Positions 26,025 to 59,090 of a stretch of DNA of 64,000 bases are shown piece after piece (position 1 is the first letter of the stretch; each line of letters starts with the position of its first letter). Under the pieces are notes generated by a model. That model was not told where the DNA came from. It worked only from the letters and a program-made list of their open reading frames with translations, and searched no databases. The stretch covers positions 10,198,438-10,262,437 of the forward strand of contig CM026400.1 of assembly GCA_014843695.1 (NCBI GenBank), read 5' to 3'. This DNA comes from Archivesica marissinica (lineage: Eukaryota; Mollusca; Bivalvia; Venerida; Vesicomyidae). The position numbers and the translations under genes are program-made.

Positions 26025-27478
26025 AGATGTCAGTCTTGCACACACCGATGTCAGTCTTGCACCCTCCGATGTCGGTCTTGCACGCTGCAAGGTCAGTCTT
26101 GTACACTGATGTCAGTCTTGCCCACTGCGAGGTCAGTCCTGCACACTCCGATGTCAGTCTTGTACACTCCGATGTCAGTCTTGCACACTGCGAGGTCCGT
26201 CTTGCACCCTCCGAGGTCAGTCTTGAACACTCCGAGGTCAGTCTTGCACCCTCCGATGTCAGTCTTGCACACTTTGATGTCAGTCTTGCACACTCCGATG
26301 TCAGTCTTGCACCTTCCAATGCCAGTCGTGCACACAACAATGCCAGTCGTGCACACAACAATGCCAGTCTTGCACACTCCGATGTCAGTCTTGCACACAC
26401 CGATGTCAGTCTTGGACCCTCCGATGTCAGTCTTGTACACTCTGATGTCAGTCTTGCCCACTGCGAGGTCAGTCTTGCACCCTCCGATGTCAGTCTTGCA
26501 CACTGCGAGGTCAGTCCTGCACACTCCGATGTCAGTCTTGTACACTCCGAGGTCAGTCTTGCACACTGCGAGGTCAGTCCTGCATACTCCGATGTCAGTC
26601 TTGTACACTCCAATGTCAGTCTTGAACCCTCCGATGTCAGTATTGCACCCTCCGAGGTCAGTCTTTAACACTCCGATGTCAGTCTTGAACACTCCGATGT
26701 CAGTCTTGCACACTGCGAGGTCAGTCTTGCACCCTCCGAGGTCAGTCTTTAACACTCCGATGTCAGTCTTGTACACTCCGATGTCAGTCTTGCACACTGC
26801 GAGGTCAGTCTTGCACCCTCCGAGGTCAGTCTTGCACACTCCGATATCAGTCTTGTACACTCCGATATCAGTCTTGTACACTCCGATGTCAGTCTTGCAC
26901 ACTGCGAGGTCAGTCCTGCACACTCCGATGTCAGTCTTGTACACTCCGATGTCAGTCTTGAACACTCCGATGTCAGTCTTGCACACTGCGAGGTCAGTCT
27001 TGCACCCTCCGAGGTCAGTCTTTAACACTCCGATGTCAGTCTTGTACACTCCGATGTCAGTCTTGAACACTCCGATGTCAGTCTTGCACACTGCGAGGTC
27101 AGTCTTGCACCCTCGGAGGTCAGTCTTTAACACTCCGATGTCAGTCTTGCACCCTCCGAGGTCAGTCTTTAACACTCCGATGTCAGTCTTGCACTCTCCG
27201 AGGTCAGTCTTTAACACTCCGATGTCAGTCTTGTACACTCCGATGTCAGTCTTGAACACTCCGATGTCAGTCTTGCACACTGCGAGGTCAGTCTTGCACC
27301 CTCCGAGGTCAGTCTTGCACCCTCCGATGTCAGTCTTGCACACTCCGATGTCAGTCTTGCACACTCCGAGGTCAGTCTTGCACCCTCCGATGTCAGTCTT
27401 ACACCCTCCGAGTGCAGCCTTACACCCTCCGAATGCAGTCGTACACCCTCCGAGTGCAGTCTTACACCCTCCGAGTAC
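26025..27478. repeat. 21-bp minisatellite, about 69 copies
   Basis: The unit is GATGTCAGTCTTGCACACTC plus C, with GAGGTCAGT, TACACTCC, CACCCTCC and TTTAACACTCC variants. The unit is seven codons long without a stop, so open frames of 460 (plus) and 500 (minus) codons run through it. They are artefacts. The array begins in the tail of the SINE at 25775-26024. Confidence 0.94.
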
Positions 27479-28204
27479 GAACGGGTGGTGAGGGAGATAG
27501 AAAGGCTGGAAGCATCCATAATGAAGGATAAAGCGCATTTGAAGTATTTGGAAGAACTGTGAGGTCAGTGTACTTCTTAAGTATTGGTCTATCATTTAAC
27601 AACAGTAGAAATCCATTAGACAAACACAATGTCTGTTTCTTGTATTGTGGATTTGTTACAAACTGACAATGGGCTTTTAGTTTAAAACGCAGTTTGGAGC
27701 TTTTTAAGTTAGTTACGTAGGATGGAACTTTAGGCTAGAAAGGACACAAATAAGTTACTATGTAACTTTCTTCCCAACCCTAACTGTTTTGTTACAACTA
27801 TTCCTGTGTTATATGTTATTTTTAGGGAAGGCAACGAATAGCGATTTGGGTATTCAACTATTCGGACGTTCATTCGAATATTTGGATATTCGTTGCCATT
27901 CCTAGTTATTTTTGAATAAAATATTGTTTAAATAAGTTAGAGATACGTTATGGGGATTTATGTTATAAACGCATTATGTTATAAACGCATTATGAGTATT
28001 ATACTTGAAAAGCATCATGGGACCTTGTGTGTTAGTAACACATTCTGAGACTTGATGCACATAATGGATTTTTAAGTGATAGCCATTGAATAGGGGTTTA
28101 AGCTCGAAACGCATTGTTGGGCTTTAACCTAGAAACCCTTCTAGGGGTCTTAAGCTAGAAAGGCATATTGGGGTGTTACGTTTGACGTGAATTTTGTGGA
28201 AGTC
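27479..28204. other. Unique region with a small palindrome
   Basis: No gene was recognised. Positions 27826-27840 (GGAAGGCAACGAATA) and 27887-27902 (TATTCGTTGCCATTCC) are inverted repeats around 46 bases, forming a small MITE-like hairpin. Degenerate repeats with AAGC(T/A)(A/C)GAAA(C/G)GCAT occur at 28000-28170. Confidence 0.5.
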
Positions 28205-31794: not shown

Positions 31795-32178
31795 TTGCGG
31801 CGACGTTAGGATACCGTGCGATCATGCAAGGTCGGTGTTAGGATACCGTGCGATCATGCAATGTCGGTGTCACAGGGATTCGGCACGTTTGGGGGTACTA
31901 GTATATATATTTAAGTATACTAGTACCCCCAAACGTGCCGAATCCCTGTGGTCGGTGTTAGGATACCGTACGGTCCTGCAAGGTCGGTGTTAGGATACCG
32001 TACGATCATGCAAGGTCGGTGTTAGGATACCGTACGATCATGCAAGGTCGGTGTTAAGATACCGTACGGTCCTGCAAGGTCGGTGTTAGGATACCGTACG
32101 GTCATGCAAGGTCGGTGTTAGGATACCGTACGGTCCTGCAAGGTCGGTGTTAGGATACCGTACGGTCATGCAAGGTCG
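31795..32178. repeat. 32-bp minisatellite directly after the CNBD stop codon
   Basis: Units contain GGTCGGTGTTAGGATACCGT then ACGGTCCTGCAA (or CGATCATGCAA), in about 10 copies, interrupted by an 80-bp palindrome. On the minus strand (the CNBD sense) each unit has CCTAACACCGACCTTGCAGG, which looks like a branch point followed by an acceptor AG, although the distance is short. The array would lie in the 3' UTR if polyadenylation is beyond it. Confidence 0.93.
31871..31950. mobile_element. 80-bp perfect palindromic hAT-like MITE with 8-bp target duplication
   Basis: The left arm 31871-31905 (starting CACAGGGATTCGGCACGTTT) and the right arm 31916-31950 are exact reverse complements over 35 bases, around a 10-base spacer. 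GTCGGTGT stands immediately on both sides (31863-31870 and 31951-31958), whereas an uninterrupted array unit has it once. This gives a clean 8-bp target site duplication, the hallmark of hAT transposition. The element has no coding capacity. Confidence 0.85.
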
Positions 32179-32196
32179 TACAACAATAGTTTGATG

Positions 32197-32409
32197 TCAG
32201 TTTGCTAAAAGTATCTTATATCGATCCAGCGAATGTTCACTTGTTGATACCTTTGCAAATGAAGATTCGTTTTCTGATTTATGCGTATCTATCATGGACC
32301 TTTCGGTGTGCAAAGTGCTTCCGGTTCCGGTTGAGGATTCGCTGCGGTTACATATTGGTTTTCTCCTGATAACTATTTTGTTTCCCGGTTTTGGTGGAGG
32401 CTCCATTTC
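32197..32409 (-). CDS. CNBD gene terminal exon 6
   Basis: The exon starts after TTATTTCAAG in phase 0 and encodes EMEPPPKPGNKIVIRRKPIC and 50 further polar residues ending ILLAN, then TGA. No domain was recognised. The phase matches the exon 5 donor at 35621 (and also a possible donor six bases earlier, after GCAG at 35627). Confidence 0.75.
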   Translation of the reverse strand, partial: EMEPPPKPGNKIVIRRKPICNRSESSTGTGSTLHTERSMIDTHKSENESSFAKVSTSEHSLDRYKILLAN

Positions 32410-35400
32410 CTTGAAATAAGAAAAAGAAAACGTTTAACATTTCGAAAACTAGTACTCGCATTAACTCGTTATCGAATATAGTTAAAAATCTTTAGGTTAC
32501 GTCCCTTGCATATAATCCACCATTTGTTAAAGTATAGCCACGCAAATCGATACTGATACTATAGTCGACCATTTGCTCTACGATGATACATGAATGTACA
32601 TATCATCTTCCGCTGCTACTCGTATTATATTGAGAACTCACACATGATTTAAAATGTACGTTGTTTTGGTTTGCTACATTTATTAATAAAGATGAATCCA
32701 ATAAGTAAGGATACAAATCGTAAATACACACAATATATTTCGTCAACATTCCTGATATCAGCCGGCACCTGTTTTCGGCCTTTGTTTATTCATGTGATTT
32801 TTGTTTACATTCGGAAAGTGAATGACGTCATTTCTATCACAACAGCTGCTTTGGTACTTATGGTGTTAACATTTTACTTATTAAAGAGCAAACTGCGCAT
32901 AAAGCAGATACATTTTCACATTTTATTTGAAAGTATGCAAATGTTGATGTTTTAATTATTCCCATTTATGTGTAGCCTAAAAATCCCTTAATTAAACAGA
33001 GGTAACTTGAATATTAGAAATATGTGTTTGTTTTTGTAAAATAAGAAATTTCGTCGTCTGCTCAGGAAGGTCACGTGATAGTTATGCGACAATGTCATAA
33101 TGCGCATTTTACAGGTCAATTCAAATATAGTGTTCCACTTACAGCTTTTTAACATTTTTTCTTCAAAAATACTATTGTCCAAGATATTTACTAGTATTTA
33201 TGCTAATTCAGTTTCATCCATTTATTTCAAATCCAACCTGGCATCTCTATTCACCAATTGTACTGACAAATGCATATCAGGCTGTTAGAGACATGGGTGT
33301 GTCAGTAAAATCGACAGCAAGACGGTATGGTGTGCCACTCTCCACATTAAGTGACATTTCTCTCCATGTCACAACTTAACTCATATTGAACAGTAATCAT
33401 AATTTGTTGGGTGTTAAATTCCTCCGTTTCGAGTAACAATTATAACTATGCCCAATGTTAATTAGCTTTTTGGAACTTAACTGTAATCAACATTTCTGTT
33501 ACATGAATTTTCACGGTCGGCCGATAATAGGTACTTTTTTCAACGCCATGTTGAAATCATAAGCAAGTGAAAGTGTATTATTTTATTTTGAACATTTGTT
33601 ATGCAATCTCAGTTTAGACAATTGAATTAAATGCAAACATGATCACTTTATTTAGTAATATTAGTCCCCTTGCCATAAAAGAGACTGACTAGAAGACATT
33701 CACCAAAAAGCATTAGACGGCCGATTACCGGTACGCCAATGGTATATATTATTTTTCATTTTGTACTGCGGTATTAGCTACAGATTCTGTAATACAATGC
33801 ACTGTCCTCCAAAAATCTAAAATGACTAATCTCTTCAGGAGGCGTCACTCATATGGGCAACCGGTTGCGACAATAAATAAACGTAAAACACACACGATAA
33901 TAACGTGCACGTGTTGGACTACTGCAGTGGACGCCACTCGCCTGTTCCTGCAGACATCACACGCCTGTACTTGCAGACGTCACTCGCCTTTACCTGCATA
34001 CGTCGCTCATCTGTACCTACAGATGTCATTTGCATGTAGATGTAGACGTCACTCACGTGTACATGCAGACGTCACTCACTTGTATTTGCAGACGTCGCTC
34101 ACCTGTACCTGCAGACGTCGCTCCCCTGTACTTGCAGATATCACTCGCCTGTACATGTAGACGTCACTCACCTGTACCTGCAGACGTCGCTCCCCTGTAC
34201 TTGCAGATATCACTCGCCTGTACATGTAGACGTCACTCACATGTACATGTAGACGTCACTCACCTGTACATGTAGACGTCACTCACCTGTACCTGCAGAT
34301 GTCACTCGTCTGTACCTGCAGACGTCACTCACCTGTGTATGCAGACGTCACTCACCTGTACTTGCAGAGGCCATGCACCTGTACTTGCAGATTCCATGCA
34401 CCTTTACTTGCAGACGTCACTCACCAGTACCTGTATAGGTCACTCACCTGTACCTGCATACGTCATTCACCTGTACTTGCAGACGTCACTCACCTGTACC
34501 TTCAGACAGCACTCACCTATACCTGCAGACAGCACTCATCTGTACATGTAGACATCACTCGCCTGTATATGTAGACGTCACTCACTTGTATTTGCAGACG
34601 TCACTCACTTGTACCTGCAGACGTCACTCACTTGTACCTGCAGACGTCACTCACCTGTACTTGCAGACGCCATGCACCTGTACTTACAGATTCCATGCAC
34701 CTTTACTTGCAGACGTCACTCACCTGTACCTGCAGAGGTCACTCACCTGTACCTGCAGACGTCATTCACCTGTACCTGCAGACGTCACCCACCTGTACCT
34801 GCAGACAGCACTCACATCTAGATGCAGACAGCACTCATCTTTACATGTAGACATCACTCGCCTGTACATGCAGACGTCACTCACCTGTACCTGCATACAT
34901 CACTCACCTGTACATGCAGACATTACTCATCTGTACATGTAGACGTCACTCGCATGTACATGCAGACGTCACTCACCTGTACATGTAGACATCACTCACT
35001 TGTACCTGCAGACGTCTCTCACCTGTACATACAGACGTCGCTCCCCTGTACTTGCAGACATCACTCACATGTACATGTAGACGTCACTCGCATGTACATG
35101 CAGACGTCACTCACTTGTACATGTAGACGTCACTCACCTGTACTTACAGATGTCACTTGCCTGTATATACATGCAGACGTCACTCACCTGTACCTGCAGA
35201 TGTCACTCACCTGTACATGCAGACGTCACTCACCTGTACTTGCAAATGCCATACACCTGTACCTGAAGAGGTCACTCACCTGTACCTACAGACGTCACAT
35301 GTACATGTAGACGTCACTCGCCTGTACCTGCAGACGTCATTCACCTGTACCTGCATACGTCACTCACCTGTACCTGCAGACGTCACTCACCTGTACGTGC

Positions 35401-38400
35401 AGACGTAACTCACCTGTACTTGCGTACATCACTCACCTGTACATGTAAACGTCACTCACCTGTACTTGCAGACGTCACTCGCCTGTACATGTAAACGTCA
35501 CTCACCTGTACTTGCAGACGTAATTCACCTGTACTTGCATACGTCACTCACCTGTACCTGCAGACGTCACTCACCTGTACATGCAGACGTCACTCGCCTG
35601 TACCTGCAGACATCACTCACCTGTACCTGCAGCCGTCGCAGCTTGGAGACATTCGGCATATCTTTAGGATTATCCTTCATCAACCATTCGGCAACCTTCA
35701 ATTCCAAATGATTGAGATTGGTCTCCGGCCGACGACGTTCAAATCTTGTTACATGTCTTGGTTTTACATTGCAAGCCGAGTCTAAATCTATGTGCTGTTG
35801 AAGAACGTTAGTTGAACGACTGCTGTCTCCCACATTAGCAGCACTATGAATACGACTGAATGCTTTGGGCAAATGTTCTGATGAAATTCCTGACAAATGA
35901 GTAACAGGACTGCTGCCGACACATTCTGCGCGCATGCCACGATCACTAATTGTAGCTTGAAATGTTTCCGAATCTTCAGAAACATCATTTGGAACATTTT
36001 GATGAGCTACAGTATCAATTTCAAGGTTTTGTTCGTTTAGATTTGTGAATGCCACTACAGTGACCGGTTCTATTTCCAAGTCGGAATTGTCACCGCCGCT
36101 CTCTGCAGCTCCCGCCATGTTTGCCGCCATTATAAGCGTATGTGGAATCCTGATTGAATGCACGTGGTCGTTCTGCTGTTTCTGGCGCGCATTATTCTTC
36201 TCCTTCTTGTAGGCCTGGAGCCTTAATTTGGATCGTTGTCTGGCCCTGATCATATAAAAAACACTCCCTGGTCCCTCAATATCAAGCAACGGTCCCTGGT
36301 GATTGAAAAACAGCTTCTCCGCGATCTGTACAGATGTTTCTGGCCTTTTCTTCTTGTTGTCGTCTGCTGCTGGCGGAGGATTATGTAGTAAATGTAATTT
36401 CATTTGCAGAAGTTTAAGTAATGGCACGACATCATATTCCTTTAAGACAGATGTTCGCGTGACAAGCTTCTTCTCCAAGTTTCTGCGCATGGTGTCAATT
36501 GTTCTCTGATGCTTCTTAACGAATAACCTCTCGTAATGTCTCATTTCCAGCACGAGAACTTCTGTTCTCTCCGTGCACACAGCTGTAGTCATGTATGTAT
36601 CCATCTCCATCAGGACTTCCACTTCACCTAAAACAATAAAGACTGTTCTGTCTGACAGTACGTAATCCAGTATGTAAGTCAACATTTGTTCAGTAACTGT
36701 GACCATCAATGTTTATAAGTAACTCATTTCTTAAAGCAGCCCTATATCGTATGAAATAAAAGATATTTAAAAAATTCAAATTGTGCGTATGGTTAGCAAT
36801 GCTGCAACGCATTCTTATATTATAATTTGTATAATTATGGTCAATTAGTAAACAGTGTTTATTTGCGATAAAACAAACTCGAAACCGAAAGAAGGACTTT
36901 CCGAGTCGGTGGGTCACGCACTTGTTTACAATCGGAACGCATCGTCCGCACTTATTTACATTCGGAATGCATCGTCCCCATTTGTCAGTAATTTACGCCT
37001 TGTTTCTCCATGGTATTGGTCACACGTTGTCTTTTTTGCTTGAATTACTTGAGATTCATACCTCTGTTATTTAAGTCTTATAGGGACATGTCTATATTCC
37101 CGCGAGGGGTTCGACATTAGAGGAAGATAGATAGATATTATTTCATGTTCAAAATACGACATTCCAACGTGCTTTTCTACATCCGCTGTTGTTTCACGCA
37201 TGCGTGCTGTGCATGTTTACAGTTTGTGTGTTGATAAACACACATTTCGTTTGTTGATAAACAATTCGTGTATACGACGGTGTATATTTATTGGATTTTT
37301 ATCGTTCCTGAGGGACTATATCGATTTTTGTAAACACACATACATTAGTATTTATATTTTACCAAACAAACATCCTTTATTACGACATATTGCTGCTATA
37401 AACAAGTGTAAGTCAACAATTTCATCAGCACGTTGATGTCCCCTAAATGAAAAACCACATCTCATGACAGAAAGTAAATGAGAAAGTGTACATCTTAGTT
37501 GTCACATATCGACTGATATCCTTCCTACCAAATTAGATATGTAAGATCTTATGAGTGCTGAGTTCATAAGCATATTTTATGAAACTAGTTTTGGAATTCT
37601 GCTAATAAGCGAGCCTTTTTGCGAGCTACATAGAAAACTTCCACAAACGAGTTTCATAAAATATGTCCTGAAATCACTACGAGTGTAAGATTCTTTTTAT
37701 CACATTACCATTAGGGTTTTAATAATAAGTTTGCACAATATAACGTTGCTACTTTCCTTTTGGCATCAAGCGTCAGCGCAAACTGTCATGACGTCACTAA
37801 AGTGTCATGACGCCACTATGCAAAACTGCGTTATATTTATGTTTTAAACAGCGTTATAATTACGGCGAGACTTATGTTAAAACGTCGTATGTCTCATCGT
37901 TAACGTTATGTACCAATTCACGTAGAAATAAGCATAATTTAAAGTTTTACGTTACAAATTATAAGGATTATTCTCTCCACCAAACAGAATCCTTCCAGGT
38001 GTTATTACACGTGTGTTAATATAAGATAATATGTGATTGCCGAATTACAATGTATATGTATATACATGATGTGCCTTATAATCTGTTAACTTATTTCACA
38101 TCTGATTCATGCTCGTATGTAATATTGTATTTTGGAATGTATTACATATGCAATCAAATATGGTTAAATCAAATCACTGAATACAAGCACGTGTGTTGAT
38201 GAAAGAAAATATGTACTGGCTCTATTATACTGAGTTCAAGCAAATTTATGTGATAAAATGACATACTTACCCAAAGATTCGTTTTTACCGAGATAACAGA
38301 GTTTGAGGAGTTTTGAGCTAGTATCTCTCTTTTTGAGCGATGGCGGCAAATTTTCCGCCACTTCCGGTTGTCGTTTCTGTTTCTTCTCTTTTATCAATCT

Positions 38401-44400: not shown

Positions 44401-47400
44401 AGTAACTACAACTCTATCAATATACAAGTAACTACAACTCTATCGATGTACAAGTAACTACAACTCTATCGATGTACAAGTAACTACAACTATATCGATG
44501 TACACGTAACTACAACCACAAGTAACTACAACTCTATCGATGTACAAGTAACTACAACTCTATCAATATACAAGTAACTACAACTCTATCGATATACAAG
44601 TAACTACAACTCTATCAATATACAAGTAACTACAACTCTATCAATATACAAGTAACTACAACTCTATCGATGTACAAGTAACTACAACTATATCGATGTA
44701 CACGTAACTACAACCACAAGTAACTACAACTCTATCGATGTACAAGTAACTACAACTCTATCGATATACAAGTAACTACAACTCTATCAATATACAAGTA
44801 ACTACAACTCTATCAATATACAAGTAACTACAACTCTATCGATGTACAAGTAACTACAACTCTATCAATATACAAGTAACTACAACTCTATCGATGTACA
44901 AGTAACTACAACTCTATCAATGTACAAGTAACTACAACTCTATCAATATACAAGTAACTACAACTCTATCGATGTACAAGTAACTACATCTCTATCGATG
45001 TACAAATAACTACAACTCTATCAATGTACAAGTAACTACAACTCTATCAATATACAAGTAACTACAACACTATCAATATACAAGTAACTACAACTCTATC
45101 GATGTACAAGTAACTACAACCACAAGTAACTACAACTATATCAATGTACAAGTAACTACAACTCTATCGATGTACAAGTAACTACAACTCTATCGATGTA
45201 CAAGTAACTACAACTATATCGATGTACAAGTAACTACAACTCTATCGATGTACAAGTAACTACAACTATATCGATGTACAAGTAACTACAACTATATCGA
45301 TGTACAAGTAACTACAACTATATCGATGTACAAGTAACTACAACTCTATCGATGTACAAGTAACTACAACTATATCGATGTACAAGTAACTACAACTCTA
45401 TCGATGTACAAGTAACTACAACTCTATCAATGTACAAGTAACTACAACTCTATCGATGTACAAGTAACTACAACTCTATCGATGTACAAGTAACTACAAC
45501 CACAAGTAACTACAACTATATCAATGTACAAGTAACTACAACTCTATCGATGTACAAGTAACTACAACTCTATCGATGTACAAGTAACTACGACTCTATC
45601 AATATACAAGTAACTACAACTCTATCAATATACAAGTAACTACAACTATATCCATATACAAGTAACTACAACTATATCGATATACAAGTAACTACGACTC
45701 TATCAATATACAAGTAACTACAACTCTATCAATATACAAGTAACTACAACTCTATCAATATACAAGTAACTACAACTCTATCGATGTACAAGTAACTACA
45801 ACTATATCGATGTACACGTAACTACAACCACAAGTAACTACAACTCTATCGATGTACAAGTAACTACAACTCTATCGATGTACAAGTAACTACAACTCTA
45901 TCAATATACAAGTAACTACAACTCTATCGATATACAAGTAACTACAACTCTATCAATATACAAGTAACTACAACTCTATCAATATACAAGTAACTACAAC
46001 TCTATCGATGTACAAGTAACTACAACTATATCGATGTACACGTAACTACAACCACAAGTAACTACAACTCTATCGATGTACAAGTAACTACAACTCTATC
46101 GATGTACAAGTAACTACAACTCTATCAATATACAAGTAACTACAACTCTATCGATATACAAGTAACTACAACTCTATCAATATACAAGTAACTACAACTC
46201 TATCGATGTACAAGTAACTACAACTCTATCGATGTACAAGTAACTACAACTCTATCAATGTACAAGTAACTACAACTCTATCAATATACAAGTAACTACA
46301 ACTCTATCGATGTACAAGTAACTACATCTCTATCGATGTACAAGTAACTACAACTCTATCAATGTACAAGTAACTACAACTCTATCAATATACAAGTAAC
46401 TACAACTCTATCAATATACAAGTAACTACAACTCTATCGATGTACAAGTAACTACAACCACAAGTAACTACAACTCTATCAATGTACAAGTAACTACAAC
46501 TCTATCGATGTACAAGTAACTACAACTCTATCGATGTACAAGTAACTACAACCACAAGTAACTACAACTATATCGATGTACAAGTAACTACAACTCTATC
46601 GATGTACAAGTAACTACAACTCTATCGATGTACAAGTAACTACAACTATATCGATGTACAAGTAACTACAACTCTATCGATGTACAAGTAACTACAACTC
46701 TATCAATGTACAAGTAACTACAACTCTATCGATGTACAAGTAACTACAACTCTATCGATGTACAAGTAACTACAACCACAAGTAACTACAACTATATCGA
46801 TGTACAAGTAACTACAACTCTATCGATGTACAAGTAACTACAACTCTATCGATGTACAAGTAACTACAACTATATCGATGTACAAGTAACTACAACTCTA
46901 TCGATGTACAAGTAACTACAACTCTATCAATGTACAAGTAACTACAACTCTATCGATGTACAAGTAACTACAACTCTATCGATGTACAAGTAACTACAAC
47001 TCTATCAATATACAAGTAACTACAACTCTATCAATATACAAGTAACTACAACTCTATCAATGTACAAGTAACTACAACTCTATCAATGTACAAGTAACTA
47101 CAACTATATCGATGTACAAGTAACTACGACTCTATCAATATACAAGTAACTACAACTCTATCAATGTACAAGTAACTACAACTCTATCAATGTACAAGTA
47201 ACTACAACTCTATCGATGTACAAGTAACTACAACTCTATCGATGTACACGTAACTACAACTCTATCAATGTACAAGTAACTACGTTTTAGCTACAGCTAA
47301 GATACATTGCTGTAGCAGCTTACATAGGGTGTATAATTATAATAATACCTAACTACGAAGTAGATATTGGCGACCGAGTCCCCCTGTTTAACCAGTACGG

Positions 47401-50400
47401 AGTCGTACGGATACGTCTCTTTATACATAGCCATCGTTAGTTGCTTCCGGTACTTCGCTATCCATGATGTAAAAAGGTCGTTGTGTTTGATAAAGTGTTG
47501 TTTTTCTTCGAACTCCTCGGCTAGAACGTCTCTAACTGCCCGGTTGTACAAAGCACGATCTACTACGAGTACATCCGTTTCTTCCTCGGCAACGATCGTA
47601 GCCGTCCGGACAGCATCGTCGGAAATGAGTGCCACCTCCCCGAATGGAAAACCGGATCCTGTAGAATAATTTCTAACCTTATTTCATTTTGTTCACAAAA
47701 TAATGATGACTAATGAAGTTAATTGTTGTTATGTAGCTGCATATACCTTGTGTTATTAATGTAGCTGCATATACCTTGTGTTATTAACGTAGCTGCATAT
47801 ACCTTGTGTTATTAACGTAGCTGTATATACCTTGTGTTATTAACGTAGCTGCATATACCTTGTGTTATTAATGTAGCTGCATATACCTTGTGTTATTAAT
47901 GTAGCTGCATATACCTTGTGTTATTAATGTAGCTGCATATACCTTGTGTTATTAACGTAGCTGCATATACCTTGTGTTATTAATGTAGCTGCATATACCT
48001 TGTGTTATTAACGTAGCTGTATATACCTTGTGTTATTAATGTAGCTGCATATACCTTGTGTTATTAATGTAGCTGCATATACCTTGTGTTATTAATGTAG
48101 CTACATATACCTTGTGTTATTAATGTAGCTGCATATACCTTGTGTTATTAATGTAGCTGCATATACCATGTGTTATTAATGTAGCTGTATATACATTGTC
48201 GTATTAATGTAGCTGCATATACCATGTGTTATTAATGTAGCTGCATATACATTGTGTTATTAATGTAGCTGCATATACCTTGTGTTATTAATGTAGCTGC
48301 ATATACCTTGTGTTATTAATGTAGCTGCATATACCATGTGTTATTAATGTAGCTGCATATACATTGTGTTATTAATGTAGCTGCATATACCTTGTGTTAT
48401 TAATGTAGCTGCATATACATTGTGTTATTAATATAGCTGCATATACCTTGTGTTATTAATGTAGCTGCATATACATTGTGTTGTTAATGTAGCTGCATAT
48501 ACCTTGTGTATTTGTTAATTCAACCTATCATCACTGATGGTCACGGGTTCGAGCCACGCTCATACCGTGTTTCATTTATATGAAAAAGTTGGCAGTTTCT
48601 TACGGAGGTTGGTGCACCCAAGTACTGGTTAACCGCTGGAGCCTGCCCAGGAAAGGTGTTGTTAGGTAAACTGCCCACCGGCGATATAGCCCAAAAATGG
48701 TGCTGATGCAGGCGTAAAACCCGAAATATAACATAATTGTTAATTCAGTACATGTTTTCAGATTATGTACACATTTTGTTTATAATTGAATATGTAAGGA
48801 TACTGATAAGCATATAAGATACGAAAATTTAAGCCAAAACACACCTCCAACAATCTAGCTAAAAACACACCTCCAACAATCTAGCTAAAAACACACCTCC
48901 AACAATCTAGCTAAAAACACACCTCCAACAATCTAGCTAAAACACACCTCCAACAATCTAGCTAAAAACACACCTCCAACAATCTAGCTAAAAACACACC
49001 TCCAACAATCTAGCTAAAAACACACCTCCAACAATCTAGCTAAAAACACACCTCCAACAATCTAGCTAAAAACACACCTCCAACAATCTAGCTAAAAACA
49101 CACCTCCAACATCTAGCTAAAAACACACCTCCAACAATCTAGCTAAAAACACACCTCCAACAATCTAGCTAAAAACACACCTCCAACAATCTAGCTAAAA
49201 ACACACCTCCAACAATCTAGCTAAAAACACCTCCAACAATCTAGCTAAAAACACACCTCCAACAATCTAGCTAAAAACACACCTCCAACAATCTAGCTAA
49301 AAACACACCTCCAACAATCTAGCTAAAAACACACCTCCAACAATCTAGCTAAAAACACACCTCCAACAATCTAGCTAAAAACAAAATTCCGGGTGTGCAT
49401 GTTACCGCATCACCTAGAAATCAGCGATAGAGTCAGCCAAGCTACGCCCATGAATGGCTAGTCCTTCGCATCAAAGGTAATGTTTTTTTTATATTTTGTA
49501 GTCAGTGCACATATATGTGTAACTATGTGCATATATGTGTAAGTATGTGCATATATGTGTAACTATGTGCATATATGTGTAAGTATGTGCATATATGTGT
49601 AACTATGTGCATATATGTGTAACTATGTACATATATGTGTAAGTATGTGCATATATGTGTAACTATGTGCATATATGTGTAACTATGTGTAAGTATGTGC
49701 ATATATGTGTAACTATGTGCATATATGTGTAACTATGTGCATATATGTGTAACTATGTGCATATATGTGTAAGTATGTGCATATATGTGTAACTATGTGC
49801 ATATATGTGTAACTATGTGCATATATGTGTAACTATGTGCATATATGTGTAACTATGTGCATATATGTGTAAGTATGTGCATATATGTGTAACTATGTGC
49901 ATATATGTGTAACTATGTACATATATGTGTAAGTATGTGCATATATGTGTAACTATGTGTAATATGTGTAAGTATGTGTATATGTGTAAGTATGTGCATA
50001 TATGTGTAAGTATGTGCATATATGTGTAACTATGTGTAAGTATGTGCATATATGTGTAACTATGTGCATATATGTGTAAGTATGTGCATATATGTGTAAC
50101 TATGTGTAAGTATGTGCATATATGTGTAACTATGTGTAACTATGTGCATATATGTGTAACTATGTGTAAGTATGTGCATATATGTGTAAGTATGTGCATA
50201 TATGTGTAACTATGTGCATATATGTGTAACTATGTGCATATATGTGTAACTATGTGCATATATGTGTAACTATGTGCATATATGTGTAACTATGTGTAAG
50301 TATGTGCATATATGTGTAACTATGTGCATATATGTGTAACTATGTGCATATATGTGTAACTATGTGCATATATGTGTAACTATGTGTAAGTATGTGCATA

Positions 50401-53400
50401 TATGTGTAACTATGTGCATATATGTGTAAGTATGTGCATATATGTGTAACTATGTGCATATATGTGTAACTATGTGCATATATGTGTAACTATGTGCATA
50501 TATGTGTAACTATGTGCATATATGTGTAACTATGTGTAAGTATGTGCATATATGTGTAACTATGTGCATATATGTGTAACTATGTGTAAGTATGTGCATA
50601 TATGTGTAAGTATGTGCATATATGTGTAAGTATGTGCATATATGTGTAACTATGTGCATATATGTGTAACTATGTGCATATATGTGTAAGTATGTGCATA
50701 TATGTGTAAATATTGATACAATGCCGTGTTAGGTAATAAGGCTTCTCGCCCTTGATTCGAACTTGCAACCTGGATCACTGCGAGCACCTGTGGATCACTG
50801 CGAGCACATGGATCACTGTGAGCACATGTGGATCACTGCAAGCACCTGGATCACTGTGAGCACATGCGGATCACTGCGAGGTAGACCCCGGACCGCACAA
50901 AAGACTACAATTATATGTATGCTGATAAAATTAACCTGGAGAGTAGTTTTAGAAAACAAATCAGCAAAGTGTACGCAGTACGCGTGATACGGGTCCGAAC
51001 CCTGGCTTAAAATCTGATTTCATTACAAAAATAAAACTCTAGCTACGTAATGCCACTACTCGGCTACTCATTGCATACCGAGGCTTGTGACGAAGTTGCC
51101 CAGCTTTGTTCTGTCAAGTTTGTCGTTGATGTTGAGTGATCCAATATTTGCAAACGCATCTTTCTCGTCTCCATCACCCGCACCGGCATCACGAGCACCG
51201 GCACCCTTGTCTTTATTGATGATGTAAATAGAAATCTTACCGGCCAAAATAATATAAAAACTGAAATAGATAAGACATGAACTGAGCTTCATTTGCAATG
51301 AATGTTTCCTCATATTTTGGAAGTATACATTTGTCACATGATTTCGTCATTTCTCTTACCTATGTTGCCAAGAAGACCAGTACATAACATGATGCTTGTC
51401 AGTACATAACATGATGCGTGTCAGTACATAACATGATGCTTGTCAGTACATAACATGATGCTTGTCAGTACATAACATGATGCTTGTCAGTACATAACAT
51501 GATGCTTGTCAGTACATAACATGATGCTTGTCAGTACATAGCATGATGCTTGTCAGTACATAACATGATCCTTGTCAGTACATAACATGATTCTTGTCAG
51601 TACATAACATGAAAAGCAAGTACATCACATGATGCTTGTCAGTACATAACACGATGCTTGTCAGTACATAACACGATGCTTGTCAGTACATAACATGATG
51701 CTTGTCAGTACATAACATGATGCTTGTCATTACATCACATGATGCTTGTCAGTACATCACATGATGCTTGTCAGTACATCACATGATGCTTGTCAGTACA
51801 TAACACGATGCTTGTCAGTACATCACATGATGCTTGTCAGTACATCACATGATGCTTGTCAGTACATCACATGATGCTTGTCAGTACATCACATGATGCT
51901 TGTCAGTACATAACACGATGCTTGTCAGTACATAACATTATTATTATTATTATATACCAAACTTATATAGCGCTCTTTTCATCTAAAAATAAAACGTTCA
52001 AAAGCGCTTTACAGCCTAAAATATCACAAATATTGATAAAAACTTCCACATACAATGAGATAAAACAAGACAAAATTAGCAAACACAATTACAATGGATT
52101 CTAAATATGCTATAAAATATTAGGATCTAAAATTATAACAATTAAAATATAGGTAATAATTAAATAAAATGTGTTCATTTGCAGTCTTAATCCTGATTGA
52201 GCACAGACATGATGCTTGTCAGTACATAGCATGATGCTTGTCAGTACATAACCTGTTGATTGTCAGTACATAACATGATGCTTGTCAGTACATAACATGA
52301 TGCTTGTCAGTACATAACATGATGCTTGTCAGTACATAACATGATGCTTGTCAGTACATAACATGATGCTTGTCAGTACATAACATGTTGATTGTCAGTA
52401 CATCACATGATGCTTGTCAGTACATAACATGATGCTTGTCAGTACATCACATGATGCTTGTCAGTACATAGCATGATGCTTGTCAGTACATCACATTATG
52501 CTTGTCAGTACATAACATGTTGATTGTCAGTACATCACATGATGCTTGTCAGTACATAACATGTTGATTGTCAGTACATAACATGATGCTTGTCAGTACA
52601 TCGCATGATGCTTGTCAGTACATAACATTATGCTTGTCAGTACATCACATGATTCTTGTCAGTACATCGCATGATGCTTGTCAGTACATCACATGATGCT
52701 TGTCAGTACATAACATGATGCTTGTCAGTACATAACATGATGCTTGTCAGTACATAACATGATGCTTGTCAGTACATAGCATGATGCTTGTCAGTACATA
52801 ACACGATGCTTGTCAGTACATAACATGATGCTTGTCAGTACATCACATGATGCTTGTCAGTACATAACATGATGCTTGTCAGTACATAACATGATGCTTG
52901 TCAGTACATAACACGATGCTTGTCAGTACATAACATGATGCTTGTCAGTACATAACACGATGCTTGTCAGTACATAACATGATACTTGTCAGTACATAAC
53001 ACGATGCTTGTCAGTACATAACATTATTATTATTATTATATACCAAACTTATATAGCGCTCTTTTCATCTAAAAATAAAACGTTCAAAAGCGCTTTACAG
53101 CCTAAAATTTCACAAATATTGATAAAAACATCCACATACAATGAGATAAAACAAGACAAAATTAGCAAACACAATTACAATGGATTCTAAATATGCTATA
53201 AAATATTAGGATCTAAAATTATAACAATTAAAATATAGGTAATAATTAAATAAAATGTGTTCATTTGCAGTCTTAATCCTGATTGAGCACAGACATGATG
53301 CTTGTCAGTACATAGCAAGATGCTTGTCAGTACATAACATGTTGATTGTCAGTACATAACATGTTGATTGTCAGTACATAACATGATGCTTGTCAGTACA

Positions 53401-56400: not shown

Positions 56401-58598
56401 TGCTACTCCAGCTTGTTGTCAAGCGTTGCTATTGGATTCTCTATATGCCTGCATTGTTGCATACATCTATGCAACTCCAGCTTGTTGTCAAGCGTTGCTA
56501 TTGGATTCTCTATATGCCTGCATTGTTGCATACATCTATGCTACTCCAGATTGTTGTCAAGCGTTGCTATTGGATTCTCTATATGCCTGCATTGTTACAT
56601 ACATCTATGCTACTCCAGCTTGTTGTCAAGCGTTGCTATTGGATTCTCTATATGCCTGCATTGTTGCATACATCTATGCTACTCCAGCTTGTTGTCAAGC
56701 GTTGCTATTGGATTCTCTATATGCCTGCATTGTTACATACATCTAAGCTACTCCAGCTTGTTGTCAAGCGTTGCTATTGGATTCTCTATATGCCTGCATT
56801 GTTACATACATCTAAGCTACTCCAGCTTGTTGTCAAGCGTTGCTATTGGATTCTCTATATGCCTGCATTGTTACATACATATATGCTACTCCAGCTTGTT
56901 GTCAAGCGTTGCTATTGGATTCTCTATATGCCTGCATTGTTACATACATCTATGCTACTCCAGCTTGTTGTCAAGCGTTGCTATTGGATTCTCTATATGC
57001 CTGCATTGTTGCATACATCTATGCTACTCCAGCTTGTTGTCGAGCGTTGCTATTGGATTCTCTATATGCCTGCATTGTTACATACATCTATGCTACTCCA
57101 GCTTGTTGTCAAGCGTTGCTATTGGATTCTCTATATGCCTGCATTGTTGCATACATCTATGCTACTCCAGCTTGTTGTCAAGCGTTGCTATTGGATTCTC
57201 TATATGCCTGCATTGTTACATACATCTAAGCTACTCCAGCTTGTTGTCAAGCGTTGCTATTGGATTCTCTATATGCCTGCATTGTTACATACATCTAAGC
57301 TACTCCAGCTTGTTGTCAAGCGTTGCTATTGGATTCTCTATATGCCTGCATTGTTACATACATCTATGCTACTCCAGCTTGTTGTCAAGCGTTGCTATTG
57401 GATTCTCTATATGCCTGCATTGTTACATACATCTAAGCTACTCCAGCTTGTTGTCAAGCGTTGCTATTGGATTCTCTATATGCCTGCATTGTTACATACA
57501 TCTATGCTACTCCAGCTTGTTGTCAAGCGTTGCTATTGGATTCTCTATATGCCTGCATTGTTACATACATCTAAGCTACTCCAGCTTGTTGTCAAGCGTT
57601 GCTATTGGATTCTCTATATGCCTGCATTGTTACATACATATATGCTACTCCAGTGTGTTGTCAAGCGTTGCTATTGGATTCTCTATATGCCTGCATTGTT
57701 ACATACATATATGCTACTCCAGCTTGTTGTCAAGCGCTGCTATTGGATTCTTTATATGCCTGATTTGGTTAGATTTGACTTACCAGTCCCCTATATATTT
57801 GGTTAGACTTGACTTACCAGTCCCCTATATATTTGGTTAGACTTGACTTACCAGTCCCCTATATATTTGGTTAGACTTGACTTACCAGTCCCCTATATAT
57901 TTGGTTAGACTTGACTTATCAGTCCCCTATAGATTTGGTTAGACTTGACTTACCAGTCGCCTATATATTTGGTTAGATTTGACTTACCAGTCCCCTATAT
58001 ATTTGGTTAGACTTGACTTACCAGTCCCCTATATATTTGGTTAGATTTGACTTACCAGTCCCCTATATATTTGGTTAGACTTGACTTACCAGTCCCCTAT
58101 AGATTTGGTTAGATTTGACTTACCAGTCGCCTATATATTTGATGAGTTTTGACTTACCAGTCCCCTATTTATTTGACGAGTTTAGACTTACCAGTCCCCT
58201 ATAGCTTTGATGAGTTTATACTTACCAGTCCCCGATAGATTTGGTTAGATTTGACTTACCAGTCCCCTATAGATTTGGTTAGATTTGACTTACCAGGCGC
58301 CTATAGATTTGGTTAGATTTGACTTACCAGTCCCCTATAGTTTTGATGAGTTTAGACTTATCAATGCCCTATAGATTTGATGCGATTAAACTTACCAGTC
58401 CCCTATTGATTCGATGAAATTAGACTTACCAGTCCCCTATAGATTTGATGATTTATTTGGATTTATTTTCTTCAAATTTTATTTCCTGATCAATATTAGT
58501 TTAGACTTACCAGTCGCCTATCTCTCCTTGTTTAATTATGATGTCGTCTCGTCTGTATTTGCCCAAGCTGCAGTTACGTACTATGTCTTTGAGGTAGT
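32197..58598 (-). CDS. Protein with two cyclic-nucleotide-binding domains (CNBD2-like), 3' part, complement join of six exons
   Basis: Exons in transcript order are 58598-58511, 51260-51079, 47658-47349, 38398-38271, 36627-35621 and 32409-32197. All junctions have GT-AG borders and the phases agree throughout, giving 641 residues and a TGA at 32199-32197. The first cNMP domain has KQGEIGDCFYIILAGKISIY (exons 1-2) and the phosphate-binding cassette FGEVALISDDAVRTATIVA (exon 3), with Glu and Arg in the canonical places. The second domain has YPYDSVLVKQGDSVANIYFV and LGEVEVLMEMDTYMTTAVC; its Glu is present but the Arg is replaced by Thr, so it probably does not bind ligand. A basic, low-complexity tail of about 370 residues follows. 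CNBD2-type proteins are soluble cAMP-domain proteins of poorly known role, one of them needed in sperm. No kinase or channel domain is visible here. The 5' end was not found. Confidence 0.88.
32410..33241 (-). other. Intron 5 of the CNBD gene, distal part
   Basis: AT-rich sequence without recognised features, apart from the acceptor of exon 6. Confidence 0.5.
33242..33379 (+). pseudogene. Relic of a pogo/Tigger-type transposase N-terminal helix-turn-helix
   Basis: The plus-strand frame through 33263-33379 reads LTNAYQAVRDMGVSVKSTAR then RYGVPLSTLSDIS, followed by a stop. This matches the HTH_psq/CENP-B-type DNA-binding domain of pogo-group DDE transposases (A...V..G.S...AAR.YGVP.STL.D). Only this domain is left, with no start codon and no catalytic domain. 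It sits in a CNBD intron on the opposite strand. Confidence 0.75.
33380..33927. other. Intron sequence without recognised features
   Basis: AT-rich and unique. CGGCCGATAATAGGTACTTT near 33518 and CGGCCGATTACCGGTACGCC near 33719 are similar and in the same orientation, possibly flanking a decayed element of about 200 bp. Confidence 0.35.
33928..35632 (-). repeat. 23-bp minisatellite grown from the donor site of CNBD exon 5, about 74 copies
   Basis: Read on the minus strand, each unit is CTGCAGGTACAGGTGAGTGA plus CGT. The coding exon ends GGCTGCAGGTACAG and the intron starts GTGAGTGATGTCTGCAGG, so the unit contains the last 12 exon bases and the first bases of the intron, including the perfect donor CAG|GTGAGT. 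Dozens of intact CAG|GTGAGT copies follow the real one. Variants CATGTACAG and CAAGTACAG keep the GTGAGT, while CAGGCGAGT units lose it. Some units also hold GCAG|GTACAG as a second weak donor. If a later donor were used, the frame would reach TGA 54 bases into the array (35569-35567). Confidence 0.9.
35621..36627 (-). CDS. CNBD gene exon 5 (second cNMP domain end and C-terminal tail)
   Basis: The exon begins after TTGTTTTAG with GT of a split Gly codon and reads EVEVLMEMDTYMTTAVCTER, then TEVLVLEMRHYERLFVKKHQ. This is the last part of the second cNMP domain (a degenerate phosphate-binding cassette and the strand-helix after it). A basic helix with KKHQRTIDTMRRNLEKKLVT follows, then a proline/lysine stretch (PPPAADDNKKKRPE), a block rich in R/K/Q (ARQRSKLRLQAYKKEKNNAR) and an acidic, Ser-rich tail. 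The last codons are LRRLQVQ. The exon is 1007 bp, 335 codons plus two phase bases. The donor lies at the edge of the 23-bp array. Confidence 0.88.
36735..37400. repeat. Dispersed element also present at 60645-61110
   Basis: Shared landmarks in the same order and strand are CGTATGAAATAAAAGATATT, AGCAATGCTGC, CGATAAAACAAACTCGAAAC, TTACATTCGGAATGCATCGT, ATCCGCTGTTGTTTCACGCA and CGATTTTTGTAAACACAC. This copy has an extra segment (about 36990-37170) that includes a SINE tail relic (CCCGCGAGGGGTTCGACATT at 37100). The class is unknown; it lies within intron 4. Confidence 0.75.
37401..38270 (-). other. Intron 4 of the CNBD gene, remaining part, with a MITE-like hairpin
   Basis: CATATTTTATGAAACT at 37571-37586 and its exact reverse complement at 37650-37665 form an inverted repeat around 63 bases. 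No other feature was recognised in this AT-rich intron. Confidence 0.5.
38271..38398 (-). CDS. CNBD gene exon 4
   Basis: The exon starts after ACAATTCAG, where one base completes Arg begun in exon 3, and reads LIKEKKQKRQPEVAENLPPS, LKKRDTSSKLLKLCYLGKNE and SL. It leaves one G for the next exon, before the donor GG|GTAAGT. It is a basic insert inside the second cNMP domain, between the strand ending YFVVR and the cassette LGEVEVL. Only this frame is open across the exon. Confidence 0.82.
38447..42237. repeat. 27-bp (and 30-bp) minisatellite, about 138 copies
   Basis: The unit contains ATCTTAATAAATAACATCGG then CGTCAGT, with ATCATCGG (three extra bases), CATCAGT, CAATAT and AACAACATC variants. 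The unit is 27 or 30 bp and free of stops in one frame of each strand, so open frames of 609 (plus), 632 and 668 (minus) codons appear. They are artefacts. On the minus strand each unit has TACTGAC, then about 17 bases of T-rich sequence and TTAAG, resembling a branch point and an acceptor. The array lies just upstream of the exon 4 acceptor. Large blocks are duplicated (for example, the unit order at 39480-39900 recurs at about 39900-40160 and 40970-41400). Confidence 0.94.
42238..42853. mobile_element. 616-bp insertion splitting the 27-bp array, with a 167-bp hairpin
   Basis: The left flank ends CAGTATCTT and the right flank resumes AATAAATAACATCGG; together they restore one exact array unit, so this is an insertion. 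Positions 42241-42281 and 42367-42407 are perfect 41-base inverted repeats. Inside them 42291-42315 and 42333-42357 are perfect 25-base inverted repeats, and the loop itself contains AGGCCGCAGGCCT. The remainder, 42409-42852, is bounded by imperfect inverted ends (ATTATAACACGAC and the complement of GTCGTGTTAGAAT). There is no coding frame. The array continues to about 42916. Confidence 0.8.
42917..43276. other. Intron sequence without recognised features
   Basis: Unique sequence in intron 3; nothing recognised. Confidence 0.4.
43277..43453. mobile_element. 177-bp hAT-like MITE with TTTAAATT target duplication
   Basis: The element starts CACAGACGATTGGGGTTTGT and ends with the inverted counterpart, ...CACCCCAAGTGTCTGTG. 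The terminal inverted repeats run about 45 bases with several mismatches and include TGGTTTCGGGTTCA. TTTAAATT flanks both ends exactly (43269-43276 and 43454-43461), an 8-bp target duplication. The CACAG start is shared with the palindrome at 31871. Confidence 0.85.
43454..43854. other. Intron sequence with a short duplicated motif
   Basis: GAGATATAGCAAACATGTAT near 43710 is repeated near 43769 (with an extra TA). Otherwise nothing was recognised. Confidence 0.4.
43855..47283. repeat. 26-bp minisatellite, about 130 copies
   Basis: The unit is TACAAGTAACTACAACTCTA then TCGATG, with TCAATA, TCAATG and TATATCG variants and a short unit (CAACCACAAGTAACTACAAC) that recurs about a dozen times, marking higher-order blocks. 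It fills the intron after exon 3 and ends about 65 bases from that exon. Confidence 0.95.
47349..47658 (-). CDS. CNBD gene exon 3 (phosphate-binding cassette)
   Basis: The exon follows TATTCTACAG and opens with GA of a split Gly codon: SGFPFGEVALISDDAVRTAT then IVAEEETDVLVVDRALYNRA. FGE and the Arg before TAT match the cAMP-contacting residues of regulatory-subunit and Epac-type domains. It continues with a linker helix and the start of the second domain (YPYDSVLVKQGDSVANIYFV then V). It ends with AG of a split Arg codon before GTATTA. The 310-bp exon joins exons 2 and 4 in phase. Confidence 0.92.
47729..48512. repeat. 28-bp minisatellite
   Basis: The unit is TGTAGCTGCATATACCTTGT then GTTATTAA, in about 28 copies with CATTGT and CCATGT variants. 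It is in intron 2, upstream of exon 3. On the minus strand each unit holds CAAG|GTATAT and TATATGCAG, weak donor- and acceptor-like strings. Confidence 0.94.
48524..48735 (+). mobile_element. tRNA-derived SINE, copy 3, 5'-truncated
   Basis: It lacks the A-box part of the head, starting at CAACCTATCATCACTGATGG, and then follows the element at 21298 through GGCAGTTTCTTACGGAGGTT to GCGTAAAACCCGAAATATAA. The 3' ends match copy 1 rather than copy 2. Confidence 0.85.
48830..49382. repeat. 26-bp minisatellite
   Basis: The unit is CTAGCTAAAAACACACCTCC then AACAAT, in about 21 copies, nearly identical apart from single deletions (48938, 49112, 49225). The low divergence suggests a young array. Confidence 0.95.
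49383..49470 (+). repeat. Dispersed repeat fragment (relative of 20692-20815, inverted)
   Basis: AAATTCCGGGTGTGCATGTT and AGCCAAGCTACGCCCATGAA correspond in reverse to the fragment in the hydrolase intron. The 26-bp array ends precisely at its start. Confidence 0.5.
49503..50712. repeat. 20-bp minisatellite with 10-bp substructure
   Basis: Units are TATGTGCATATATGTGTAAC or the same with AAG; shortened TATGTGTAAG units mark duplicated blocks. There are about 60 copies of the 20-bp unit. The tract is purine/pyrimidine-alternating and AT-rich. Confidence 0.94.
50713..51078. other. Short 18-22-bp tandem repeat and intron flank
   Basis: Positions 50770-50882 hold about six degenerate units of GGATCACTGCGAGCACCTGT. 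The region just before it (CTCGCCCTTGATTCGAACTT) resembles the B-box end of a tRNA-like sequence in reverse. The remainder is intron adjoining the exon 2 donor. Confidence 0.6.
51079..51260 (-). CDS. CNBD gene exon 2
   Basis: The exon follows CTATTTCAG. One base completes the Cys begun in exon 1, and the exon reads FYIILAGKISIYIINKDKGA, then GARDAGAGDGDEKDAFANIG and a segment ending LGNFVTSL, leaving G before GTATGC. FYII..GK.SIY is the central beta-strand pair of a cNMP-binding domain. The Gly/Ala/Asp-rich stretch is an insert of about 35 residues between strands, longer than in the canonical domain. Confidence 0.9.
51388..53605. repeat. 22-bp minisatellite interrupted by two copies of one insert
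   Basis: The unit is TCAGTACATAACATGATGCT then TG, with ACATCACAT, ACGATG, AGCATG and GTTGATTG variants, in about 77 copies. It fills much of intron 1 and runs directly into the 69-bp array. Confidence 0.94.
51939..52207. mobile_element. 264-bp AGCGC-type dispersed element in the array, copy 1 (copy 2 at 53025-53293)
   Basis: Both copies start after a (TTA)n run with TATATACCAAACTTATATAG, CGCTCTTTTCATC, and end TTAATCCTGATTGAGCACAG. They lie exactly 1086 bp apart with no length difference and only two differences noticed (TATCAC/TTTCAC; AAAACTT/AAAACAT). Flanking array units are also alike, so the copies arose by duplication of a 1086-bp block rather than by two insertions. The class of the element is unknown; ATATAGCGC motifs are common in marine invertebrate repeats. 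Confidence 0.85.
53606..57745. repeat. 69-bp minisatellite, about 60 copies, with a 1428-codon artefact frame
   Basis: Each unit contains TTGTTGTCAAGCGTTGCTAT, TGGATTCTCTATATGCCTGC and ATTGTTACATACATCTATGC then TACTCCAGC. The length is 23 codons, and two forward frames lack stops, so open frames of 1428 and 687/521 codons arise. The third frame is broken only where TATGC is TAAGC. Variants occur in ordered blocks (for example the TATGTGCC units at 54055, 54305, 55409 and 56376). One unit is truncated at 54121-54133. Confidence 0.95.
57755..58520 (-). repeat. 34-bp minisatellite grown from the donor site of CNBD exon 1, about 20 copies
   Basis: On the minus strand each unit reads ATAGGGGACTGGTAAGTCAA, then GTCTAACCAAATAT. 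The real exon ends GATAGGCGACTG and its intron begins GTAAGTCTAAAC, so the unit spans the exon-intron junction with a perfect GTAAGT donor. Units with the exon-like GGCGACTG variant exist at about 57951-57962 and 58119-58130. The array body ends near 58452; about 46 unique bases separate it from the exon's own junction at 58511/58510. Read-through past the real donor meets TAA at once (TG|G TAA), so use of a decoy would truncate the protein. Confidence 0.9.
58511..58598 (-). CDS. CNBD gene exon 1 of those visible
   Basis: The 88-bp exon follows ATACTTGCAG and begins with two bases of a split codon (xAC), then YLKDIVRNCSLGKYRRDDII then IKQGEIGD, and ends TG of a split Cys codon before GTAAGT. 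KY..DD.II.QGE.GD.FYII is the classic opening of a cNMP-binding domain. The codon phase proves that at least one more exon lies upstream; none was identified between 58.6 and 64 kb. Confidence 0.9.
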
Positions 58599-58677
58599 CT
58601 GCAAGTATATATAAATACACCTATGTATTATGCCAGATTGCACTAGCCACGCCGTGACATCATGTAACAGTTCCTAT

Positions 58678-59090
58678 TGGCTGCTCACCACGACGTGGCG
58701 TGTGTTCAGTTCCTATTGGCTGCTCACCACGATATGGCGTATGTTCAGTTCATAGTGGCTGCTCACCACGACGTGGCGTGTGTTTAGTTCCTATTGGCTG
58801 CTCACCACGATATGGCGTGTGTTCAGTTCCTATTGGCTGCTCACCACGATATAGCGTGTGTTCAGATCATAGTGGCTGCTCACCACGATATGGCGTGTAT
58901 TCAGTTCATATTGGCTGCTCACCACGATATGGCGTGTGTTCAGTTCCTATAGGGCGTGTGTTCAGTTCCAATTGTCTGCTCACCACGATATGGCGTGTAT
59001 TCAGTTCCTATTGGCTGCTCACCACGATGTGGCGTGTGTTCAGTTCCTATTGGCTGCTCACCACGATATGGCGTGTGTTCTTTTCATGTT
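58678..59090. repeat. 39-bp minisatellite upstream of CNBD exon 1
   Basis: The unit contains TTCCTATTGGCTGCTCACCA then CGATATGGCGTGTGTTCAG, in about 10 copies. On the minus strand it holds CGTG|GTGAGC, a donor-like string, so it might derive from an unseen upstream exon end, but no such exon was found beside it. Confidence 0.93.

Follow-up and report, generated by a model that had tools for sequence, protein, structure and literature searches.

The stretch of DNA analysed here, 64,000 nucleotides of the bivalve Archivesica marissinica (contig CM026400.1; referred to as the window), carries on its minus strand a gene for a cyclic-nucleotide-binding protein, five exons of which were placed within the window (Table 1). 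One of these exons ends inside a tandem array (the first array), and a second array begins 63 bp past the end of another. Every unit of the first array is a copy or variant of the exon tail together with its 5' splice site (donor), and the first copy is the end of the coding exon with its donor.

Exons of the host gene

The presence of a cyclic nucleotide-binding domain (CNBD) gene on the minus strand, claimed in the initial annotation, was supported by Pfam. Spliced in frame, the exons 58598-58511, 51260-51079 and 47658-47349 gave PF00027 with an E value of 6.2e-18. For the exon 36627-35621, whose last base 35621 is in phase 0, no Pfam family was found and a search of the PDB returned one match at chance level (E 0.94). 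The 103 residues flanking the first array had no second copy in the genome (1.54-Gb assembly, 2,808 contigs) at E 0.001, the two matches obtained being the window's own exons.

Position 32409 is the likely start of the exon that follows the first array, a placement that is good but not proven. Nine acceptor-like sites lie outside arrays on the minus strand between 33928 and 19500, and the pyrimidine tract at 32409 is clearly the best of them (17/18, others 14); a rival acceptor at 27734 opens a longer phase-0 frame (90) behind a weaker tract. The 3' boundary of the candidate exon was set at its TGA, and the true exon end may differ. The resulting intron, from 35620 to 32410, measures 3,211 bp, of which the first array occupies about 1.7 kb.

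Table 1. Features of the window, followed by exon ends at sampled arrays elsewhere in the genome. A slash within a sequence marks the exon end.
Feature	Position	Strand	Description
CNBD exon	58511..58598	-	..IIIKQGEIGD, phase 2; donor CTG/GTAAGT at 58511/58510
Second donor array	57762..58447	-	34-bp unit x 20, TATAGGGGACTG/GTAAGTC; found by strong-donor scan; 18/20 with perfect CTGGTAAGT
CNBD exon	51079..51260	-	spliced to 58511, the join being read as GEIGD/CFYIILAGKISIYI
CNBD exon	47349..47658	-	GFPFGEVALISDDAVRTATIV..; PF00027 at 5.9e-08 on frame 47330-47683 alone
Coding exon	35621..36627	-	335 codons; open frame, translation; acceptor TCTTTATTGTTTTAG; ends in the first unit of the first array
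First array	33930..35637	-	23-bp unit x 74, TACAG/GTGAGTGACGTCTGCAGG; Tandem Repeats Finder and unit parse
First, presumed used donor	35615..35623 (cut 35621/35620)	-	CAG/GTGAGT; U1 duplex -11.9 kcal/mol
In-frame TGA	35567..35569	-	met via any GT donor from the fourth on; ends 54 bases past the exon
Candidate next exon	32197..32409	-	phase 0; 70 codons + TGA (32199-32197); acceptor TTTTCTTTTTCTTATTTCAAG/GAA, 17/18 pyrimidines
SRRM1 exon end	L043 (1560-1801)		KKEEIKKRQ/; PDB 1mp1_A E 4.1e-22, 6ff4_Y 2.1e-21; Pfam PWI
Exon like vesicular glutamate transporters and sialin	L037		VNHLDLAPQ/; PDB 7t3n_A E 8.7e-08; Pfam match below cut-off, unrelated family
Weaker: coproporphyrinogen oxidase	L045		PDB E 0.012; Pfam 0.029, below cut-off
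Weaker: EGF-like	L040		Pfam 0.015, below cut-off; PDB 0.14
Weaker: BBX-like	L050		E 0.53; Pfam none
Weaker: Na/H exchanger	L052		Pfam 2.8e-16; array 9 bp past the called donor; site also acceptor-like

The first array repeats an exon end and its donor

Tandem Repeats Finder reported 74.3 copies with a period of 23 and 81% matches. Parsed unit by unit, the array, which runs from 35637 down to 33930 on the minus strand, consists of 74 units, 72 of them of 23 bp, one of 19 bp and one of 27 bp. The last 12 bases of the exon, CTGCAGGTACAG, recur with variants throughout, and by eye the likeness to the exon tail extends to 19 exon bases with 2 differences. A unit is thus composed of 12-19 exon bases followed by GTGAGTGA and holds exon, splice signal and intron sequence. 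The 22-letter exon-intron junction was matched by at least 17 letters at 66 places in the window (itself counted), all on the minus strand. Exact copies of the consensus unit number three in the genome and lie in the first array without exception.

The window has 27 copies of the perfect donor nonamer CAGGTGAGT, every one on the minus strand and inside the first array, and none on its plus strand; the nonamer is kept in 27 of the 74 units, including the first. As donor dinucleotide 52 units have GT, 14 have GC and 8 have neither. U1 duplex energies were computed against the U1 end sequence. Of the 244 GT sites in the array 27, including the first donor, reached -11.9 kcal/mol, a value seen at none of 3,751 GT sites on the rest of the minus strand or 4,113 on the plus strand. 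The initial annotation had described about 74 tandem copies of a 23-bp unit that contains the last 12 exon bases and the donor CAG/GTGAGT, with dozens of perfect donors, and this description holds, 27 being the number of the latter.

The unit also contains words resembling binding sites for transcription factors, namely CAGGTG and TGACGTC, which we take to be an E-box and a CRE-like (cyclic AMP response element-like) site. With 37 and 33 occurrences on the minus strand of the array, they could make it a DNA-level element of tandem sites. This is extremely improbable, as the full TGACGTCA does not occur in the first array and the unit is already explained by the exon edge.

Predicted outcomes of donor choice

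The first donor fits because phase 0 is found both at the exon end and at the start of the candidate next exon, so that donor 1 joins the two in frame. Donor 2 is a GC (+23) and donor 3, at +46, shifts the frame. When the 52 GT donors were joined to the next exon, the full tail was obtained once, from donor 1, a 35-residue tail once, and one and the same 17-residue tail, VSDVCRYRRVTSACTGE, 50 times. Since the GT donors from the fourth on all run into the same TGA, the product would hardly depend on the length of the array. The initial annotation had stated that later donors shift the frame or meet TGA after 54 bases, which is what was found. Its further proposal, an array that starts from the exon end and has the real donor first, agrees with the exon model, in which this donor alone leads in frame to the candidate exon; the first donor would be the one mainly used.

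That shared TGA could also make the array an off switch insensitive to its own length, if donor choice were regulated as in human IFI6 and later donors were used at some rate, giving a truncated protein or a target of nonsense-mediated decay. IFI6 mRNAs take two downstream repeat units as donors (PMC4526556), and where two donors compete, SRSF1 can favour the intron-proximal one (PMC5585400). The 27 sites with the best U1 pairing are equals without a match elsewhere in the window, 50 of the 52 GT donors lead to one tail, and the 20 downstream sites of the second array would likewise stop after GDW. Against it stand the lack of donor-specific conservation in the first array and the report that splicing is undisturbed by comparable arrays in amphioxus, and we regard regulated donor choice as unlikely.

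Mini-introns or pseudo-exons inside the first array were considered and rejected, because its CAG sites (n=24) have no good acceptor tract (mean 7.0, maximum 9 of 18 pyrimidines). An explanation by RNA hairpins was likewise rejected, the first 319 nt folding worse than shuffled sequences (z +1.98).

Drift of the units and donor density

Column statistics were calculated on 71 of the 74 units, with the last edge unit and two units of odd length dropped. Mean identity was 0.895 across the nine donor columns vs 0.872 across the remaining fourteen, a figure that becomes 0.911 when the hypervariable column 22 is left out, and the T of the GT is among the least-kept columns (0.76). Perfect donors were present in 26 of the 71 units, with 25.5 expected if the columns decayed independently. 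Neither column identity nor the count of perfect words in these units thus revealed selective upkeep of the donor nonamer. Adjacent units are more alike than shuffled ones (4.04 vs 4.46 differences, p 0.001, 2,000 shuffles), units 61-63 differ from units 64-66 by one letter, and units 37-44 resemble units 50-57, 13 units further on. Likeness of neighbours and repeated blocks are signs of concerted evolution, and judged from its units the first array is a drifting minisatellite.

Strong donors (-8 kcal/mol or lower) are concentrated in the first array, with 37 in its 1.7 kb vs 36 on the remaining minus strand, 28 of which fall in two other arrays. Such a density would suit a U1 sponge or decoy field that holds U1 or blocks premature intronic cleavage and itself remains unspliced, as the initial annotation had considered. 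This role is very unlikely and is not supported: the donor columns decay like the others, the number of perfect donors is that of independent decay, and arrays of this kind recur in the genome, where reversed control words are nearly as frequent in tandem (see below). A single locus, moreover, could not plausibly titrate the abundant U1. Of the three options raised in the initial annotation, the third, that the array is harmless if the first donor always wins, appears best supported.

A second array in the same gene

The exon 58598-58511, near whose end the second array begins, has the junction GATAGGCGACTG/GTAAGTCTAA. Its 22 letters were matched by at least 17 at 20 further places, all on the minus strand. 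All 20 downstream sites of the array (two with AT for GT) would end the protein directly after GDW. Since the end of this exon is read as part of the CNBD, the unit of this array came from the exon.

Arrays lie nearer to the five exons than expected from random placement (nearest-edge p 0.0014, 5,000 placements); this is soft support, as the growth of an array may simply stop where it reaches an exon. The third array, at 58668-59080, has units that resemble donors (GTGGTGAGC, -8.1); no exon was recognised by eye on its 5' side, and it was not retained as a further case.

Donor arrays elsewhere in the genome

Close tandem triples of CAGGTGAGT gave 1,565 matches in the assembly vs 1,051 for the reversed word, and those of CAGGTAAGT gave 2,621 vs 1,816, all being overlapping matches and not numbers of arrays. 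As evidence, an excess of 1.4- to 1.5-fold is weak, words of such make-up being often tandem in this genome. Among the matches listed (contigs C1 and C2), 19 further arrays were sampled, 12 distinct ones for CAGGTGAGT and 7 for CAGGTAAGT, the latter sample leaving out close copies belonging to two families and a locus that had been sampled before.

Two of the 19 (L043 and L037) start exactly at a recognisable exon end, and both repeat the exon tail and the donor together. SRRM1, the gene at L043, encodes a splicing factor; here the match extends to the last codon of the exon, which ends in the PWI region, and the array follows directly. The SRRM1 case bears on the order of events: a pre-existing minisatellite might have supplied the exon end, with the exon growing into the repeat. 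At the first array no homologue is known for the exon tail, so the direction is not proven there. At the second array, however, the exon tail is part of the CNBD reading, and at SRRM1 the match reaches the last exon codon, which in both places argues that the exon came first. An origin from the array is thus distinctly improbable.

Exon ends were recognised less firmly at five more of the 19 arrays (L045, L040, L050, L046 and L052); the one at L046 we took for an acyl-CoA synthetase by its look, searches having given no match. Nothing recognisable was found at the remaining 12, of which three had masked flanks (L039, L047 and L048), one (L035) had a frame too short to search, and eight gave no Pfam match above cut-off, with matches below it for L041 and L044. 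Leaving out the three with masked flanks, a frame of at least 40 codons ended at the first donor in 11 of 16 usable arrays vs 30% of 469 control positions, an excess that is suggestive only.

Neighbouring features

Tandem arrays with some two dozen different units make up about 68% of the window if a 1-kb N gap is counted with them, those at 3504-17994 (44/86 bp) and 53609-57762 (69/138 bp) included. A 32-bp array (31805-32178) starts 18 bp past 32199-32197, the stop codon of what is probably the last exon, and the 3' untranslated region of the gene may therefore also carry a minisatellite. Tandem copies resembling tRNA-Thr(GGT) lie within a 72-bp repeat on the minus strand (61564-62595), four being called by ARAGORN and four, partly different ones, by Rfam. 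On the plus strand, an open frame at 26026-27564 leads through a 21-bp repeat (HSDVSLA-like) into YERVVREIERLEASIMKDKAHLKYLEEL and a stop, and may be a coding minisatellite; an exon at 21726-22097 matches inosine-uridine nucleoside hydrolase (PF01156, 6.2e-12).

Discussion

An array in which an open exon ends, which is followed by a phase-matched next exon, whose units resemble the exon edge and drift, and which recurs in gene and genome, is very probably what has been called a mirage in amphioxus: a minisatellite that began as a duplicated exon-intron boundary, that grew neutrally and of which the first donor is used. With 74 units of 23 bp at an exon edge it has the short tandem units that characterise mirages, and it fits their definition in each feature tested, namely tandem units, unit content and concerted evolution. 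In such a course of events, the stretch duplicated at the exon edge would have measured about 23 bp, made up of 12-19 bases from the exon end and the start of the intron, and slippage or unequal exchange would have lengthened the array 74-fold into the intron. The original copy would stay fixed because it is coding sequence and working donor, and the remaining copies would drift as intron. Exon definition by the authentic exon probably favours the first donor, and use of a later one would lead to one truncated or decayed transcript, whatever the length of the array.

Several observations weigh against this interpretation. The donor columns of the second array are the best kept of 34 circular nine-column windows (0.983 vs 0.892, 20 units only), which could hint at upkeep and, in so few units, counts against pure drift. 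In the first array divergence grows only weakly with distance from the exon (Spearman 0.25, p 0.035). The support for the next exon at 32409 consists of its acceptor and its frame, and a Pfam search gave no match. Finally, joining 47349 to 36627 at the best-looking sites reads AG/G TGA, a stop, which could mean that an exon is missing, that the assembly is wrong or that the gene is broken. The exon end at the first array is supported by its open frame, its phase and the exon that follows; that at the second array is firmer.

The main interest of the locus lies in the recurrence in the same gene and genome, which makes the choice among equal donors measurable. A row of equal donors at a known exon end amounts to a natural competition experiment in which strength is nearly constant and position varies, and given RNA from a single individual, the rule that chooses the first of 20-74 donors could be measured in several genes at once. 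We put forward only tentatively, and consider doubtful, the wider idea that exon ends and their donors are habitually expanded into long tandem arrays in this genome and throughout its lineage. The spliceosome would then, in many genes, have only exon context by which to pick the authentic donor among dozens of equal copies, and almost every later choice would lead to one truncated product. The case adds a 1.54-Gb genome to those published for amphioxus, whose genomes measure about 0.5 Gb, and shows one way in which introns grow.

Comparison with known systems

Mirages in the amphioxus gene Adh3 were reportedly described by Canestro in 2002. They are minisatellite-like tandem duplications of an exon-intron boundary, many of them with splice signals (PMC3087553, PMC3902484), and occur in Adh3 (unit 10-72 bp) and the globins BflGb6 and BflGb9 (PMC3087553), to which troponin C and PGBD5 were added (PMC3902484). 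As in Archivesica marissinica, boundary-spanning tandem units are found in several genes of one animal group. The two haplotypes of BflGb6, however, carry 6 and 3 units, 150-160 bp long (PMC3087553), in contrast to 74 units of 23 bp and 20 of 34 bp here, and normal splicing at amphioxus mirages is backed by reverse transcription PCR, whereas here it is predicted from sequence.

The human gene IFI6 (6-16, G1P3) resembles our case in having a minisatellite that offers multiple donor sites, which is said to be the content, by its title, of a 1995 paper by Turri. That paper is cited in PMC4526556 and PMC2572611, and two downstream units of the IFI6 repeat are used as donors, giving three mRNA species (PMC4526556); in the first array, by contrast, donors are predicted from sequence. 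In human paralogs, minisatellite expansion of internal tandem repeats at exon-intron boundaries changes introns (PMC2812944), with units that differ from ours in averaging 30 bp repeated 4 times within segmental duplications. Intron gain by duplication across an intron-exon boundary likewise duplicates splice signals but creates a new intron, whereas the units here have no good acceptor (at most 9/18 vs 17/18 pyrimidines). Taken together, the boundary-spanning minisatellite is of an already known kind, and the published amphioxus mirages match it in design.

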